From: Enorma massiliensis phI
GTDB lineage: Bacteria; Actinomycetota; Coriobacteriia; Coriobacteriales; Coriobacteriaceae
DNA length: 64,000 bases
Direction: 5' to 3'
Assembly (NCBI RefSeq): GCF_000311845.1
Contig: NZ_HE978574.1
Span: 300,737-364,736, forward strand
Below, piece by piece: positions 8,369 to 17,518 of this stretch. The notes under the pieces were generated by a model. The model was given only the letters and a program-made list of their open reading frames with translations, was not told the origin of the DNA and did no database searches. Every line of letters begins with the position of its first letter. The first letter of the stretch is position 1. The position numbers and the translations under genes are program-made.

Positions 8369-9334
8369 CTAACCGCCCAACTGCTCATAGCGTTGTATCG
8401 ATGGCATGAGCGTTGCGTAGAGCACTCGACGTCGAGCCTCGTAGGTAGCGCTGCGTAACCTTATGCGTTTTCCAAGGGAGTGTGCGATGTTGAGCATGAG
8501 CTTCTCGCAAAGATGCTCCTGCGCAAGATCCTCGTACCAGATATTGAGCAGCGTGATGCCCGTGCCGGTGAGGCGATTCTGCCGGCGATCGTCGCGCGCC
8601 GTTCGTTCTATCGAATGTGCGCGCCGCCCCTTGTACTCCAGGCCCACTCTCTCCTTGTAAAAGAAAATGTCCACCCACTTTGGTCCATCGGCGGTCATAA
8701 TTCGCTGGTTCATTTTCACCCTACCGAGGTTCCATCCACCCATGCAGTGCGGAAGGCTTACCAGTAGGGCAGCAACGGTTTCCATGGGGGAGTGTGAACC
8801 GTCAGCGATAAGGCGGGCGAGCCGTCGAGCGCGCTTTGAACCGTTCATACCAGAGCAGCGTTCAAGAAAGGCGGATATCTTTTTCGCGCTCGTTATAGGG
8901 GCATCTGTACTGGTGTAGCTGTCCCAGGAATCTTCCGATACATCGAGAACGTAGGTACCGCAGAGCTCAAATCCGATTCGCAACAGCTCGATGTCGTCGA
9001 TATCGCGGGAAGCCGCAAGCTCAAGGAAGAGCAGCTCCGGGGTGACTACCAGCGTATCTTTGTTGAGAACGATGAGCGATCGTGCTGGAAGAGGATGGCG
9101 GTGCGTATGCCGAGCAACAAAGCGAGGGGCATGTCCGGTTTTGGTTTCACACAATACATGGCAAGGATGAGTCTTGATGCCGTATCGTTTCAGGTCGTCC
9201 TCAAGCATGGGGCGCGGAGGCACCGAGCAATCATTAAGCTTGGCGGTTCGTGGCTTATGCAGGATGTCCGGCGCGAGACGCCCACTTGCGCGGTATAGCT
9301 CAAGGGCCGATATGTTGCAAAAGCACTTCCTCAT
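8369..9334 (-). CDS. AbiEi-like protein with a C-terminal PD-(D/E)XK-type segment
   Basis: 321 residues, cytoplasmic, function unknown. The middle (LIVLNKDTLVVTPELLFLELA) looks like the AbiEi/DUF559 protein group common in gut Actinomycetota. Near the C-terminus, KWVDIFFYKERVGLEYKG fits the D...ExK spacing of the restriction-endonuclease fold, followed by a conserved helix with RRQNRL. A second gene of this general type lies at 28839. AbiEi proteins are antitoxins of type IV toxin-antitoxin pairs, but no AbiEii toxin gene is beside it. It has a weak ribosome binding site. Confidence 0.6.
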   Translation of the reverse strand: MRKCFCNISALELYRASGRLAPDILHKPRTAKLNDCSVPPRPMLEDDLKRYGIKTHPCHVLCETKTGHAPRFVARHTHRHPLPARSLIVLNKDTLVVTPELLFLELAASRDIDDIELLRIGFELCGTYVLDVSEDSWDSYTSTDAPITSAKKISAFLERCSGMNGSKRARRLARLIADGSHSPMETVAALLVSLPHCMGGWNLGRVKMNQRIMTADGPKWVDIFFYKERVGLEYKGRRAHSIERTARDDRRQNRLTGTGITLLNIWYEDLAQEHLCEKLMLNIAHSLGKRIRLRSATYEARRRVLYATLMPSIQRYEQLGG

Positions 9335-9975: not shown

Positions 9976-10176
9976 GATTGTTAGCTCGATTACTAGATAG
10001 TTCCATCCGGGTTGGAATTATCACGAGGAAATAACGTGAGCAGTGCATATATGAGCACAATAGGGATATAAAATCTAAGTCTCAACATGTTAGGTTTGTT
10101 GAGTGCTGTACGACCTGCTACTTAGTACGTGCCGCGCGCTCAACAAGCATCCACAGGGAGGAAGGGAACGCAGCGC

Positions 10177-12210
10177 ATGCGCAAGTTCAAAACAGAGAGC
10201 AAGAAGCTCCTTGATCTCATGATCAACTCGATTTACACCAACAAGGAGATCTTCCTGCGCGAGCTCATCTCTAACGCGTCGGATGCGGTCGACAAGCTCA
10301 ATTTCAAGAGCCTTACAGACGATAGCATGAAGGTCGACCAGGACGATCTTTCGATCCGTGTGAGTTTTGACCGCGATGCGCGTACCATTACCGTTTCGGA
10401 TAATGGTATCGGTATGACGGCCGATGAGCTTGAGAAGAACCTGGGTACCATCGCCCATTCTGGCAGCCAGGAGTTCAAGACCGAGAACGCCGAGAGCCAG
10501 GGCGACGCGGTCGATATCATCGGTCAGTTTGGTGTCGGTTTTTACTCTGCGTTCATGGTGGCCAAGCGCGTTCAGGTTGTGAGCCGCGCGTATGGCGAGG
10601 ATGCGGCGAACGTATGGGAGTCCGATGGCCTCGAGGGCTATACCATCGAGCCCGGCGAGCGCGCGGGCCACGGCACCGATGTGATTCTTACGCTCCGCGA
10701 CAATGAACCCGGCAAGGACGGCGAACCCGGCGAGAACTATGACCGCTACCTGAGCGAATGGGCCCTCAAGGACCTTATCACGCGCTATAGCAACTACGTG
10801 CGCTATCCGATTCAGATGATGGTAACCAAGAGCCGCCAGAAGCCCAAGCCGGAAGATGCAGGCGACGATTACCAGCCCGAGTACGAGGACTATCAGGAGC
10901 TCGAGACTATCAACTCCATGACGCCGATCTGGAAAAAGCGCGCCTCGGATGTGGAGCAGAGGGATTACAACGAGTTCTACAAGAGCACGTTCCACGACTT
11001 CGAGGACCCGGCGCGCACCATCAGCTTCCATGCCGAGGGCGCGCTCGAGTACGACGCATTGCTGTTTGTTCCCGGCCGCGCGCCGTTCGACCTGTACAGC
11101 AAGGATTACGAGAAGGGCCTGGCGCTTTATAGCTCCAACGTCATGATCATGGAGAAGTGCGCCGACCTGCTGCCGGACTACTACAACTTCGTTCGTGGCG
11201 TTGTGGATTCCGAAGACGTCTCGCTCAACATCAGCCGCGAGACCCTGCAGCATGACCGCCAGCTTCACGCCATCGCGCGGCGCATCGAGAAAAAGATTAC
11301 GGATGACCTCTGCGACATGCGAGACAACGATCGCGAGGCGTATGAGAAGTTCTTTGAGAATTTTGGCCGTGGCCTCAAGTTTGGCATTTACAACACGTAC
11401 GGCGGCAAGGCGGACGAGCTTGGTGATCTGCTGCTCTTCTGGAGCGCTAAAGAGCAGAAGATGGTCACGCTCCGCGAGTACGCCGAGGCCATGCCCGAGG
11501 GGCAGAAGGCCGTCTATTATGCTGCCGGCGACGACCGCGAGCGCCTGAGCAAGATGCCCGTGGTGACGGGCGTGCTCGCGCGCGGCTACGACGTGCTGCT
11601 GTGCACGCAGGGCGTTGACGAGTTTACCTTCCAGGCTATGCGCGAGTACGTGGCGCGCGACATGCCCAAGATCTATGAGGACGACGCTGCGCGTGAGGCG
11701 GCCGAGAAGGCTCAGGCCGACGGCGCGGAGCCCGAGACCGAGGATCGCCACCTGGAGCTCAAGAACGTGGCGACGGGCGACCTCGATTTGGCGAGCGAGG
11801 ACGAGAAGAAGGAGGCCGAGGAGGCTACCAAGGAGCACAGCGACCTCTTCGATGCGATGAAGGAGGCGCTTGGCGACAAGGTGGAGAAGGTTGCGGTCTC
11901 GTCACGTTTGGTGGGAGAGGGCGAAGCTCCCGCGTGCATCACGACCGAAGGCCCGCTTTCGCTCGAGATGGAGAAGGTCCTCAAGCGCGGTCCCGAGGGC
12001 GAGGCCGAGGGCCTGCCCAAGACCCAGCGTGTACTGGAGCTCAATGCAAAGCATCCGGTGTTTACCAAGCTTGCAGCCGCGCAAGATGCGGGCGATTCTG
12101 AGAAGATCGCGCTGTATGCCGGCCTGCTCTACGACCAGGCGTTGCTTGTAGAGGGCATTCTGCCTGAGGATCCGGTGGCGTTCTCGCAGCGCGTATGCGA
12201 GCTGATGTAG
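10177..12210 (+). CDS. htpG: Molecular chaperone HtpG (Hsp90)
   Basis: 677-residue bacterial Hsp90, an ATP-dependent cytosolic chaperone dimer. The N-terminal GHKL ATPase domain shows ELISNASDAVDKL, DNGIGMT and GQFGVGFYSAFMVA; the middle domain shows NISRETLQH and the WSAKEQKMVTLREY region; the C-terminal dimerisation domain follows. Acidic inserts at about 525-560 make it longer than the roughly 625-residue Escherichia coli protein. I start at the ATG at 10177 with AGGGAGGAAGGGA upstream. It is monocistronic and closed by a strong terminator. Confidence 0.96.
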   Translation: MRKFKTESKKLLDLMINSIYTNKEIFLRELISNASDAVDKLNFKSLTDDSMKVDQDDLSIRVSFDRDARTITVSDNGIGMTADELEKNLGTIAHSGSQEFKTENAESQGDAVDIIGQFGVGFYSAFMVAKRVQVVSRAYGEDAANVWESDGLEGYTIEPGERAGHGTDVILTLRDNEPGKDGEPGENYDRYLSEWALKDLITRYSNYVRYPIQMMVTKSRQKPKPEDAGDDYQPEYEDYQELETINSMTPIWKKRASDVEQRDYNEFYKSTFHDFEDPARTISFHAEGALEYDALLFVPGRAPFDLYSKDYEKGLALYSSNVMIMEKCADLLPDYYNFVRGVVDSEDVSLNISRETLQHDRQLHAIARRIEKKITDDLCDMRDNDREAYEKFFENFGRGLKFGIYNTYGGKADELGDLLLFWSAKEQKMVTLREYAEAMPEGQKAVYYAAGDDRERLSKMPVVTGVLARGYDVLLCTQGVDEFTFQAMREYVARDMPKIYEDDAAREAAEKAQADGAEPETEDRHLELKNVATGDLDLASEDEKKEAEEATKEHSDLFDAMKEALGDKVEKVAVSSRLVGEGEAPACITTEGPLSLEMEKVLKRGPEGEAEGLPKTQRVLELNAKHPVFTKLAAAQDAGDSEKIALYAGLLYDQALLVEGILPEDPVAFSQRVCELM

Positions 12211-12918: not shown

Positions 12919-13767
12919 TCACCTGCGCGTTTTTGGTGCATGCTCGTTTATAGTCGCGATGACGCGGGCCATGGTTTCGTCAATTTTGTCGCGTTTGAGT
13001 TCGCATTCCCAAATAGTGATGGGCGTCCAGCCGAGTTCTTTCAGCTCGGTGATCGCACGGGCATCGCGCTCGACGTTGCGGCGAAACTTTGCCTCCCAGA
13101 ACTCGGTATTGCGCTTTGGAGTCGAAGGATTGCAGTGCGGGCATCGGTGCCAGAAGCATCCGTTCACAAAGATGGCGATTTTGCGTCCGGGAAACGCGAT
13201 GTCCGGCCTGCCTGGAGCCTTCTTCCACTGAAGGCGATAGCCGGTAAGGCCAGCGGCTCGCAGGCGCTGGCGCACGAGCAGTTCGGGTTTGGTGTTTTGC
13301 CGCTTGTTTCCTTGCATGGAATGGCGGCTGTCGTGGCGGCGCTTGGCGAGGGCAGCAAGGTCTTCGTCGCTTGATGTCCGCGAGAGCGTATTGACGAGCT
13401 CTACATCTGCGGGCATCCACGAGAGGGTGGCGAGAGAGCGGCGCTCGATCCAGCGTATTTCGAGTTGGCGATCGCTCTTCTGGGGTTCGCCCTCTTCGAT
13501 GCGGCACGAATAGCATTCCATCGAGAGGTGAAAATCCGGGTAGTCGTATTCGACGGTGTAGATGTCGCGGAGGCCGGTCACGCGGATGTTGAGCTCCTCG
13601 GCAAGTTCGCGCCGGCATGCGTCTTCGGCCGTCTCTCCGCGTTCCACCTTGCCGCCAGGGAATTCCCAGAGGCCCGACATCTCTCCGTAGCCGCGTCGAA
13701 CGGCGAGCACGCGGTTGCTGTCGCCGTTTTCATGGATGATTCCCGCTGCCACACGGACTGTTTTCAT
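12919..13767 (-). CDS. Fusion of a MutT-like Nudix hydrolase and a Vsr-type mismatch endonuclease
   Basis: 282 residues. Positions 1-130 are a Nudix hydrolase: the box runs from G39 (GGKVERGETAEDACRREL), with E45, R53, E54, E57 and E58 in place and the usual late Gly replaced by Asn60. This family includes enzymes that destroy oxidised dNTPs such as 8-oxo-dGTP. Positions 150-282 match very-short-patch repair endonuclease: NTKPELLVRQ, GRPDIAF (Asp189), NGCFWHRCPHC (Cys204, His207) and TIWECEL (Cys255), the catalytic and zinc sites of Vsr. The ATG at 13767 follows GGGAG. No cytosine methylase gene is in the window. The fusion is read directly from one frame. Confidence 0.88.
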   Translation of the reverse strand: MKTVRVAAGIIHENGDSNRVLAVRRGYGEMSGLWEFPGGKVERGETAEDACRRELAEELNIRVTGLRDIYTVEYDYPDFHLSMECYSCRIEEGEPQKSDRQLEIRWIERRSLATLSWMPADVELVNTLSRTSSDEDLAALAKRRHDSRHSMQGNKRQNTKPELLVRQRLRAAGLTGYRLQWKKAPGRPDIAFPGRKIAIFVNGCFWHRCPHCNPSTPKRNTEFWEAKFRRNVERDARAITELKELGWTPITIWECELKRDKIDETMARVIATINEHAPKTRR

Positions 13768-13854
13768 GCAACGTACTCCCAGCTTGACTTTGGTTCTCAC
13801 CGTATTGTACGCATCTTGGGCGGCCCTCGCCGATTTACCATGACGGTTGTGGGC

Positions 13855-14508: not shown

Positions 14509-15330
14509 ATGCCTGTACTTACCCAGCAAGCACGCCATGCGGCGGGCGCCGCCGGAGTCGCCGGCGCCCCCGTGCTCGACGTTCAGCATATTGAAAAGAT
14601 CTATGGTAGCCGCAGCAACGTGACGCATGCGCTGCGCGATGTCTCCTTTACCGTCAACCAGGGCGACTTCGTGGGCATCATGGGTGCATCCGGCTCGGGC
14701 AAGTCGACGTTGCTCAATTGCGTCTCTACCATCGATAAGGTTACGAGCGGCAGCGTGATCGTGAACGGCGAAGACGTCACGAGGCTCAAGAGCCAGCAGC
14801 TCACCAAGTTCCGCCGCGAGCAGCTGGGGTTCATTTTCCAGGATTCCAATCTTCTCGATACGCTTACCGCGCGAGAGAACATTGCCCTGCCGCTCACTAT
14901 CAGCCGCGTGCCTGCCAAAGAGACGCTCGCTCGCGTGACCGAGGTCGCCGGGCGCCTTGGCATCCGTGAGACGCTGGACAAGTACCCCTATCAGCTTTCG
15001 GGCGGCCAGCAGCAGCGCGTTGCCGCGGCACGCGCCCTGGTTACCAACCCGGCCATCATCATGGCCGACGAGCCCACGGGCGCGCTTGATTCCAAGAATG
15101 CGCGGCTTCTGCTCGAGAGCTTCGAGACCATGAACCGCACGTACCGGGCGACGGTGCTCATGGTCACGCACGACAGCTTCGCCGCGAGTTACACGCAGCG
15201 CGTGCTCTTCATTCGCGACGGGCGCATCTTCACCGAGCTTCGGCGCGGCGGGTCCACGCGCCAGGAGTTCTTCGACCGCATCATGGAGGTTGTGGCCATG
15301 ATGGGCGGGGAGGGATCCGATGCTCTGTAA
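14509..15330 (+). CDS. ABC exporter ATP-binding protein (BceA-like)
   Basis: 273-residue ATPase of a MacB/BceA-type exporter. Walker A GASGSGKST (59-67), Q loop FIFQDSNLL, signature LSGGQQQR, Walker [15 protein letters not shown] and the switch His in MVTHD are all present. An Ala-rich N-terminal leader of about 20 residues precedes the domain. The start ATG follows GAAAGGA. Its end overlaps the permease start by 11 bases, so the two are translationally coupled. BceAB systems remove peptide antibiotics such as bacitracin from their lipid targets; the substrate here is not known. Confidence 0.88.
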   Translation: MPVLTQQARHAAGAAGVAGAPVLDVQHIEKIYGSRSNVTHALRDVSFTVNQGDFVGIMGASGSGKSTLLNCVSTIDKVTSGSVIVNGEDVTRLKSQQLTKFRREQLGFIFQDSNLLDTLTARENIALPLTISRVPAKETLARVTEVAGRLGIRETLDKYPYQLSGGQQQRVAAARALVTNPAIIMADEPTGALDSKNARLLLESFETMNRTYRATVLMVTHDSFAASYTQRVLFIRDGRIFTELRRGGSTRQEFFDRIMEVVAMMGGEGSDAL

Positions 15331-17518
15331 AATAGCCTTGGGCAACGTGCGCCGCGTGGGCAAGGACTACCTGGTCTACCTGCTCACGCTTACGCTTGCC
15401 GTAACGGTGTTCTATGCGTTCAACACCATATCCCTCCAGGTGGACATTGCCGGCGTGACCGAGCAGAACTCCGGCATGGGCGATTTGCTCGGCGGAATCA
15501 TCAACGGCCTCACGCTGTTCCTGGCGTTTGTGATGGGCTTTCTCATGGTCTACGCAAACAACTTCATCATGAAGCGCCGCAAAAAGGAATTCGGCCTCTA
15601 CCAGGTGCTCGGCATGAGTCGCGGGCAGGTCGCGCGCATCATGGCGCTCGAGACGTTCTTCGTCTCGCTCGTCTCGCTCGTGCTGGGGCTCGTGCTCGGT
15701 GTAGGGCTCTCGCAGCTCATGGTGTTCTTCACAGCTTCGCTCTTCAAGACGCAGATCGCGAACTTCCATTTCTTCTTCTCGTTCGGCGCGTTCATGATCA
15801 CGGTGGGATGCCTCCTGGCGATCTTCCTCGTGACGCTCGTCTTCAACCTGCGCGTGGTCGCGCGGGCAAAGATCATCGACCTCATGAGCGCGAGCCGTCA
15901 AAACGAGAACATCAAGGTTCGCAACCCCTGGCTCTCGGCCGCGGTCTTCGTGGTGGGCGTGGCGCTCATCGGGGTCTCGTACGCGCGCTTGCTGCAGGAC
16001 GGCCTGCCCTATGACGGCCAGCCGGAGGCCATGACGGCGTTTCTCGTGACGACCATCATGGTTGTGGTGGGCACGATCCTCTTCTTCCTGGGGCTTTCGG
16101 GCTTTTTGCTCAAGGCGCTCCAGGCGGCACGCGGGCTCTACTGGCGCGGGCTCAATATGGTCACGATGCGCCAGCTCGCGGCCAAGGTGAATACCGTGAG
16201 CTTCTCGATGGCCATGATCGCCATGATTCTCTTCCTAGCCATTACCTCGGTGACCGCTGGCATGTCGCTTGCAAGCGTGATGAACGAGAGCGTCGAGCGC
16301 GGCACGCCGTTCGACTACACGCGCGTGCTCGTCTATTTCGGTCCGCAAGCGGTTGCCGAGGAGAACGCCTACGCCGAGGCCAACGGCGACTCGACCCGCT
16401 ACGCGGTGGCGACCGAGCCCATCGACCTCGTCGAGGCAAGCAAGGCCGATACGGTGGGCGAGGGAACGGCCGACGCGCACCCGTTTGACGTGTCGCAGAT
16501 TGCCGGCGGACACGTGCAGGTGGATGTATACGATTCGACGCCGCTCGGTGCCGACGCGCCGCTCGTGACGCTCAACCAGCTGTGCGATGCGACGGACATG
16601 GAGATGCCTTCGGGCGTGGATTCGACGGGCACGGCGGAGCTCGGCCTTGGCGTGGTGAAGGAGAGCGTATACAACGCGTACCTGCGCTATCGAGGCATGG
16701 ACGAGATCGATCTGGGCGCGAACGGCTACACGATCATCTCTGACATGGGAGCTACGCTCAACGATATCTATAACGCGGCGCTCGCGCAGGGTGTGGAGAT
16801 CGATTTCAACGGACACGCGCTGCGTCCGGTAAGCGACCGCGTGAACGAAGAGGCGAGCGCCTTCCAAAACGCGATGTTCGGCATGAACACGGGAACAATC
16901 GTAGTGCCCGATTCCTATGTCGAGGAAGCCAACCTGCCGCTCTATTACGGCTACCTGATGGTCGATTACGCCGATGGCATTTCGACCGAGGAAGGAGACG
17001 CTTTCATCAACGAGCTGCGCACCTATCACCCCATCACCAACGATGCGGGCGAGATCGTGGCGGGATGGGGGTCCGAGGCTACTCGCACCCAGAGCTACGA
17101 GAGCGTGGACTCTATGAACGGCCTGATCTCCTACCTGGCTATCTACATCGGCTTCGTGCTGGTGCTGGCGTGCGCTGCGATTCTGACCATCCAGCAGCTC
17201 TCGGGCGTGGCCGATGCGAGCCCCAACTATCGGATACTTGCCGAGCTGGGTACGCCGACGCGCCAGATCATGCATTCGACGCTCGTGCAGCAGGCGATTT
17301 TCTTCGTGTTCCCGCTCTTCATCGGGGTTGCGCACTCGTGCGTGGCGCTGAGCGTGATCGTCAAGCTCGTGCAGCTGTTCGGCGGCTTCACCATCGGCGG
17401 CGCGGTCGGCCTCACGGCGTTCATCTTCTTGGTGGCATATGGTGGGTACTTCTACGTGACCTACCTCATGAGCAAGGGCATCGTGAGGGATGCGATCAGG
17501 GCGCGGCATAGTTTGTAG
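15320..17518 (+). CDS. ABC exporter permease (BceB/FtsX family)
   Basis: 732-residue integral membrane protein, partner of the ATPase it overlaps. Paired FtsX-type helices occur at about 20-110, then 140-330, then 595-725. A large extracellular domain of about 260 residues lies before the last three helices, the placement used by BceB for peptide sensing. The region KRRKKEFGLYQVLGMSRGQV is the cytoplasmic coupling helix typical of the family. BceB proteins often signal to a dedicated kinase; none is adjacent, but two pairs lie within 12 kb. Confidence 0.87.
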   Translation: MLCKIALGNVRRVGKDYLVYLLTLTLAVTVFYAFNTISLQVDIAGVTEQNSGMGDLLGGIINGLTLFLAFVMGFLMVYANNFIMKRRKKEFGLYQVLGMSRGQVARIMALETFFVSLVSLVLGLVLGVGLSQLMVFFTASLFKTQIANFHFFFSFGAFMITVGCLLAIFLVTLVFNLRVVARAKIIDLMSASRQNENIKVRNPWLSAAVFVVGVALIGVSYARLLQDGLPYDGQPEAMTAFLVTTIMVVVGTILFFLGLSGFLLKALQAARGLYWRGLNMVTMRQLAAKVNTVSFSMAMIAMILFLAITSVTAGMSLASVMNESVERGTPFDYTRVLVYFGPQAVAEENAYAEANGDSTRYAVATEPIDLVEASKADTVGEGTADAHPFDVSQIAGGHVQVDVYDSTPLGADAPLVTLNQLCDATDMEMPSGVDSTGTAELGLGVVKESVYNAYLRYRGMDEIDLGANGYTIISDMGATLNDIYNAALAQGVEIDFNGHALRPVSDRVNEEASAFQNAMFGMNTGTIVVPDSYVEEANLPLYYGYLMVDYADGISTEEGDAFINELRTYHPITNDAGEIVAGWGSEATRTQSYESVDSMNGLISYLAIYIGFVLVLACAAILTIQQLSGVADASPNYRILAELGTPTRQIMHSTLVQQAIFFVFPLFIGVAHSCVALSVIVKLVQLFGGFTIGGAVGLTAFIFLVAYGGYFYVTYLMSKGIVRDAIRARHSL

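Follow-up and report, generated by a model that had tools for sequence, protein, structure and literature searches.

The window, by which we mean the whole 64,000-nucleotide stretch of the Enorma massiliensis phI genome that was analyzed, carries a gene in which a Nudix hydrolase domain is joined to a Vsr-type endonuclease domain (Table 1). The reading frame runs on the minus strand from an ATG at 13767 down to a stop codon at 12919-12921 and contains no internal stop or frameshift. An in-frame GTG at 13800 provides an alternative start, yet we take the ATG as the start because it fits a MutT-like N terminus and is preceded by GGGAG at 13780-13776. A promoter scan at the start of the gene returned nothing convincing and did not pick up the TACAAT motif that is listed in Table 1.

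Table 1. The Nudix-Vsr gene, its parts, and its conserved neighbors, in coordinates of the window
Feature	Position	Strand	Evidence or remark
htpG (Hsp90), conserved neighbor	10129..12210	plus	Pfam HSP90; near the fusion in many relatives
Nudix-Vsr fusion gene	12919..13767	minus	282 aa + stop; P0001
Vsr endonuclease domain, residues 148-275	12943..13326	minus	PF03852, TIGR00632; E. coli Vsr alignment; 1cw0/1vsr/1odg
Catalytic His207 (= E. coli Vsr His69)	13147..13149	minus	Invariant, 38/38
Catalytic Asp189 (= E. coli Vsr Asp51)	13201..13203	minus	Invariant, 38/38
Linker, residues 131-147	13327..13377	minus	13-121 residues in relatives; weakly constrained
Nudix domain, residues 1-130	13378..13767	minus	PF00293/PF14815; AlphaFold; Foldseek
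Asp121, aligned with MutT Asn119 and NudG Asp118	13405..13407	minus	Asp in 36 of 38 fusions, Asn in 2
Nudix box, residues 39-61	13585..13653	minus	Sequence; G39, E54, E57, E58 invariant in 38 homologues
Possible -10 element TACAAT	13804..13809	minus	Upstream of ATG 13767; read from sequence only
ABC transporter ATPase, conserved divergent neighbor	14509..15330	plus	Pfam ABC_tran; synteny
FtsX-type ABC permease, conserved neighbor	15320..17518	plus	Pfam FtsX; synteny

Both domains are recognized well above threshold. Pfam NUDIX (PF00293) matches residues 5-118 at 68.9 bits (cut-off, 21.1), Pfam Vsr (PF03852) matches residues 148-208 at 69.3 bits (cut-off, 27), and the NCBIfam vsr model TIGR00632 scores 111.6 bits, above its cut-off of 97.85. 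Sequence searches of the PDB matched the C-terminal half to the Vsr structures 1cw0, 1vsr, and 1odg and the N-terminal half to MutT-like structures. The Nudix box, GX5EX7REUXEEXGU, is represented by G39, E45, R53, E54, E57, and E58, with N60 at the position of the late glycine. In the other half, D189, H207, F205/W206/W224, and C204/C209/C212/C255 align with the active-site and zinc region of E. coli Vsr, where the counterparts are D51, H69, F67/W68/W86, C66, C73, and C117; T63/H64 of that enzyme are replaced by V201/N202. These scores and alignments agree with a sequence-only reading of the same DNA, which had joined a Nudix box at residues 39-61 to a Vsr domain with Asp189, His207, and zinc cysteines in one frame, and had proposed the Pfam searches that bear it out. 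Judged from its sequence, the protein is a true fusion of two domains with complete sets of catalytic residues. An AlphaFold model (mean pLDDT, 89.9) shows two domains with confidence, most of the Nudix domain scoring above 90, but leaves their mutual orientation uncertain (pTM, 0.57).

Conservation and genomic setting

The host (G000) is a member of the Coriobacteriaceae with a genome of 2.28 Mb, whose nearest named relatives are Collinsella. A taxonomic survey, also suggested by the sequence-only reading, found both halves in one open frame in 62 of 67 Coriobacteriaceae species genomes and in five of the six genera, which rules out a chance or artefactual fusion and an assembly error. The NCBI name for the Collinsella aerofaciens protein is simply "DNA mismatch endonuclease Vsr." In genus g2, four genomes carry a stand-alone Vsr with no fused Nudix domain. 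A single genome among the fusion-bearing genera is without the Vsr half: in G035 (1.7 Mb), the Nudix half is kept (L194:6818-8602), and both htpG and the ABC pair remain nearby.

We read 38 fusion copies in full, the window's own included. Catalytic residues are retained in every copy: G39, E54, E57, and E58 of the Nudix half are invariant, as are D189, N202, C204, W206, H207, C209, C212, and W224 of the Vsr half, and residue 205 is F or Y. A stop or frameshift between the domains, or lost catalytic residues, had been named as what would count against the fusion; neither was found, with the frame open across the family and the residues intact. The linker varies from 13 to 121 residues. Pairwise dN/dS values, which are rough because dS is high, are about 0.12-0.23 for the Nudix domain, about 0.04-0.10 for the Vsr domain, and mostly about 0.4-1.0 for the linker. 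Purifying selection acts on both domains.

The surroundings of the gene are conserved as well: in 30 of the 38 loci, the FtsX permease lies upstream of the fusion and divergent from it. Flanked by htpG and an ABC exporter, the fusion is a core gene with conserved synteny. A recent phage or plasmid origin can be dismissed, since among records that cover at least 80% of the query none is from a phage and just one is a plasmid, a 900-kb replicon of C. aerofaciens with the same ABC neighbors. Elsewhere in the window, a gene at 8369-9334 (minus strand) encodes a 321-aa protein with a weak C-terminal match to a PD-(D/E)XK model (MTES_1575; 16.7 bits, below the cut-off); Vsr also belongs to this fold superfamily.

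Substrate type of the Nudix half

Among specific models of nucleotide-sanitizing enzymes, the Nudix half scores best with MutT, at 90.6 bits against an equivalog cut-off of 97.9 (TIGR00586). It reaches 84.8 bits with a second MutT model (PRK10776; cut-off, 148) and 66.7 bits with the NudG model (cut-off, 156), so that by score it belongs to neither equivalog. A control segment from MutT2 gave the reverse order, with the NudG model above the MutT model. Individual residues point in another direction. R78 and N119 of MutT, which we take to be its base-contact residues, align with F79 and D121 in the fusion. An aspartate at the position of N119 is the state of NudG and MutT2, as expected of a pyrimidine-type enzyme, and unfused Nudix relatives have it too. 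A Foldseek search with the Nudix half matched 3r03, MutT2 (including its complex with 5mdCTP, 5zro), and MutT, and the best 50 matches listed were all Nudix structures.

The Nudix half is thus like E. coli MutT, an 8-oxo-dGTP diphosphatase, in its fold, its Nudix box, and its best score among specific models, but differs from it at two base-contact positions and falls short of its equivalog cut-off. It is like NudG (Orf135) and mycobacterial MutT2, which are associated with (d)CTP and 5-methyl-dCTP, in its xPAD segment, its aspartate at the base-contact position, and its Foldseek match to the 5mdCTP complex of MutT2, but unlike them in its low score on the NudG model. The evidence on substrate conflicts, with whole-domain scores favoring MutT and Asp121 favoring NudG and MutT2.

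One reading of these data, to which we give appreciable but less than even weight, is that the Nudix half is the MutT of this lineage and was fused to Vsr by chance, leaving two independent enzymes under one promoter. The top score with MutT fits this reading, as does the lack of any other homologue in the host genome at E ≤ 1e-3, and the flexible linker with low interdomain confidence would suit two enzymes that work separately. It has to contend, however, with a score under the MutT cut-off, with the replacement of R78 and N119, and with the recurrent pairing of Nudix and Vsr in Bacteroidales described below, which argues against chance.

Cytosine methylation and the Bacteroidales pairs

The Vsr half resembles Vsr/V.EcoKDcm (PF03852, TIGR00632) in its domain, its Asp/His catalytic pair, its intercalating aromatics, and its zinc-site cysteines. 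Unlike that enzyme, it has a Nudix half, V/N in place of T63/H64, and no adjoining dcm, and it persists where the genome has no m5C methylase and in a class that lacks MutS and MutL. Only 1 of the 38 fusion loci has an m5C methylase within about 7 kb, versus 53 of 58 Vsr loci on virus contigs that have one within 5 kb (both counted with a home-made profile, the 58 being 60 viral loci minus two with Nudix only). Across whole genomes, a PF00145 methylase is present in 44 of the 62 genomes that carry the fusion and absent from 18, of which 17 are at least 90% complete. The fusion is uncoupled from m5C methylases.

Outside the family, where a best E value below 1e-40 served as the proxy for Vsr, the picture depends on depth. 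Outside the order Coriobacteriales, a methylase occurs in all 20 genomes with Vsr versus 14 of 54 without it; in the order beyond the family, the corresponding counts are 76 of 118 versus 15 of 43 (p = 0.001). By these counts, the coupling of Vsr to methylases is tight in deeper lineages and loosened in Coriobacteriales. Within the order, several lineages with small genomes seem to lack this Vsr. Yet Vsr still correlates with methylases within the order, and so a role connected with m5C has not vanished. The link is a usual association and not a strict requirement, and for the fusion itself we found no genetic tie to a methylase.

The sequence-only reading had remarked that no Dcm-like methylase is present and that Vsr may have another target. 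The first remark holds for the window but not for the genome: the genome search that it recommended located one m5C methylase on contig 2, which rules out the absence of a cytosine methylase from the genome as a whole, although the gene is apparently frameshifted in the assembly. The second remark gains from the counts above, in which the fusion is not tied to a neighboring Dcm. The contig 2 methylase has a MutH/Sau3AI-type nuclease domain at its N-terminal end, and downstream of a G9 tract its last segment is no longer in frame. Nuclease-methylase chains of this kind, 860-950 aa long, were seen at about 505030-507700 of contig 2 (L203) and in relatives (L209-L217, L219, and L220). In most genomes, a poly-G tract of 7-13 bases at one conserved place throws the last methylase segment out of frame, whereas in G030 and G057 the segment is in frame. 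The protein has the look of a phase-variable restriction-modification system in a single chain, and it appears to be OFF in this assembly.

A second Nudix-Vsr fusion occurs in Prevotella (L012). In a quick Nudix tree with mostly modest support, the Coriobacteriaceae fusions form one set and the Prevotella fusion groups with Prevotella Nudix genes that adjoin separate vsr genes, a placement that implies at least two fusion events. Unfused Nudix and Vsr genes are neighbors in Bacteroidales in both gene orders. At two of these loci, L016 and L050, they belong to operon-like arrays with an m5C methylase and an EcoRII endonuclease (L016:4362-9038 and L050:5457-8778, with the order of vsr and Nudix reversed between the two). 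At L077, two m5C methylases and an AAA_5 gene precede vsr and Nudix, and the genome of L054 has three methylases nearby, apparently on the same contig. No methylase was found in the genomes of the fused Prevotella locus (G311) and of L075, the latter a small MAG. The Bacteroidales loci are a selected set, drawn from a search for both domains, and therefore show recurrence and not frequency.

Two further observations concern these neighborhoods. Large proteins that begin alike (M-I-L-EE-Y) adjoin vsr or Nudix genes at L077:5162-7294, L054:2981-5326, L076:446-2818, and L079:1782-3926, and had no Pfam match where scanned. The one at L077 adjoins the AAA_5 (McrB-like) gene and the two m5C methylases, and these proteins are possibly the nuclease subunit of a LlaJI/McrBC-like system. 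On plasmid pTS1 of Treponema saccharophilum (L205:3598-5420), the gene for a Nudix relative overlaps that for an AAA ATPase; two m5C methylases lie within a few kilobases, as does an Eco47II-family endonuclease.

Such arrays invite the view that Nudix and Vsr form a hygiene module for 5-methylcytosine, which we consider less likely than not but worth retaining as a tentative alternative. The Nudix domain would destroy 5-methyl-dCTP released from degraded methylated DNA, keeping m5C from being scattered into DNA, and Vsr would repair the T:G mismatches that arise from m5C deamination; the work of the module would track resident, mobile, or phase-variable methylases along with imported methylated DNA. 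Published work can be cited in favor (PMC5389931). The NudG- and MutT2-like aspartate is consistent with this role, and so are the Bacteroidales genes directly behind EcoRII m5C restriction-modification genes, those near the two methylases and AAA_5 gene of L077, and the invariable company of Vsr and methylases outside Coriobacteriales. The 18 fusion genomes without a PF00145 methylase point the other way, as does the fused Prevotella genome, which also has none. Furthermore, the Nudix half scores better on MutT than on NudG, the opposite of MutT2, and the aspartate is shared with unfused relatives.

The sequence-only reading had also raised the idea of a defense system, which fares poorly. 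PADLOC matches the protein to PDC-S07 and Vsr, and its relatives lie in restriction-modification islands of Bacteroidales. However, E. coli MutT and NudG, run as controls, match PDC-S07 equally well, making the match of the Nudix half nonspecific and uninformative. In addition, the gene is nearly universal in the family, sits in the conserved chromosomal order of htpG and the ABC exporter and not in a defense island, and seldom has a methylase nearby. We therefore reject this reading, and an anti-phage function seems highly improbable.

Mismatch repair and mutation avoidance

MutS_V was over its cut-off in none of the 67 family genomes and none of 298 genomes of the class, with controls detected. 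NucS_C gave only weak matches of 40-70 residues in the family, none of them in the host genome, and no clear NucS; these matches are probably other PD-(D/E)XK proteins. With neither a MutS nor a NucS homologue in the host genome, the fusion cannot be placed in canonical or NucS-type mismatch repair. Uracil-DNA glycosylase is present in 67 of 67 family genomes. Coriobacteriia have been described as lacking both NucS and MutS-MutL, with the comment that further pathways may exist (Castaneda-Garcia 2017; PMC5290159). The role of the fusion in removing mismatches may overlap with that of NucS/EndoMS and MutS-MutL, but it has no sequence relation to them and is not expected to discriminate between strands.

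A Vsr that acts without a fixed context has a precedent. V.NgoAXIII of Neisseria gonorrhoeae is a natural Vsr that cuts T:G in all contexts (PMC6116569), and context-free action by a Vsr is therefore biochemically possible. The comparison is one of reported activity and not of sequence; unlike the protein studied here, V.NgoAXIII is not known as a fusion, and it comes from a host with MutS, MutL, and several m5C methylases.

The reading that we prefer, with slightly better than even confidence, is that Nudix-Vsr is a bifunctional housekeeping anti-mutator that combines nucleotide-pool cleaning with T:G repair. We infer that both domains are active. The Nudix domain, of MutT, MutT2, or NudG type, would hydrolyze aberrant (d)NTPs before they enter DNA, with modified or oxidized nucleotides such as 5-methyl-dCTP, 5-hydroxy-dCTP, or 8-oxo-dGTP as its likeliest substrates. 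The Vsr domain would nick 5' of the T in T:G, after which polymerase and ligase would restore C:G, and a relaxed sequence context would allow it to act in genomes without a methylase. Mutation would thus be lowered on both sides of replication. Because Vsr always removes the T, repair would be biased toward G:C and not toward the parental strand, which suggests an anti-deamination or GC-restoring activity; an enzyme that does not discriminate the template strand cannot provide full mismatch repair. With a flexible linker between them, the domains have the appearance of separate modules, so that joining them probably brings co-expression or co-localization and not new chemistry.

Some points weigh against this reading. 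Vsr is dispensable, as seen in G035, which has the Nudix half only, and in the small-genome lineages that apparently do without it; its correlation with methylases persists within the order; it does not discriminate the template strand; and the domains may be fused for co-expression only. Nevertheless, the proposal of the sequence-only reading that prevention and repair of mutation are coupled in one polypeptide is reasonable, and it is strengthened by the Prevotella fusion and by the neighboring Nudix and Vsr genes of Bacteroidales.

We found no description of a Nudix-Vsr fusion in a literature search that was thin on subscription journals. Both domain families are already known; what is new is the domain architecture and its core, methylase-independent distribution. 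With at least two origins, the fusion links two enzyme families that are usually studied apart. More speculatively, Nudix-Vsr could be all or part of a mutation-avoidance pathway of Coriobacteriia, in which a context-relaxed T:G nickase would serve as a general anti-mutator with its own nucleotide-pool cleaner. We regard this stronger proposal as a long shot. Even so, a near-universal, methylase-independent Vsr that is fused to a pool cleaner offers a concrete candidate for the further pathway that Coriobacteriia may possess.
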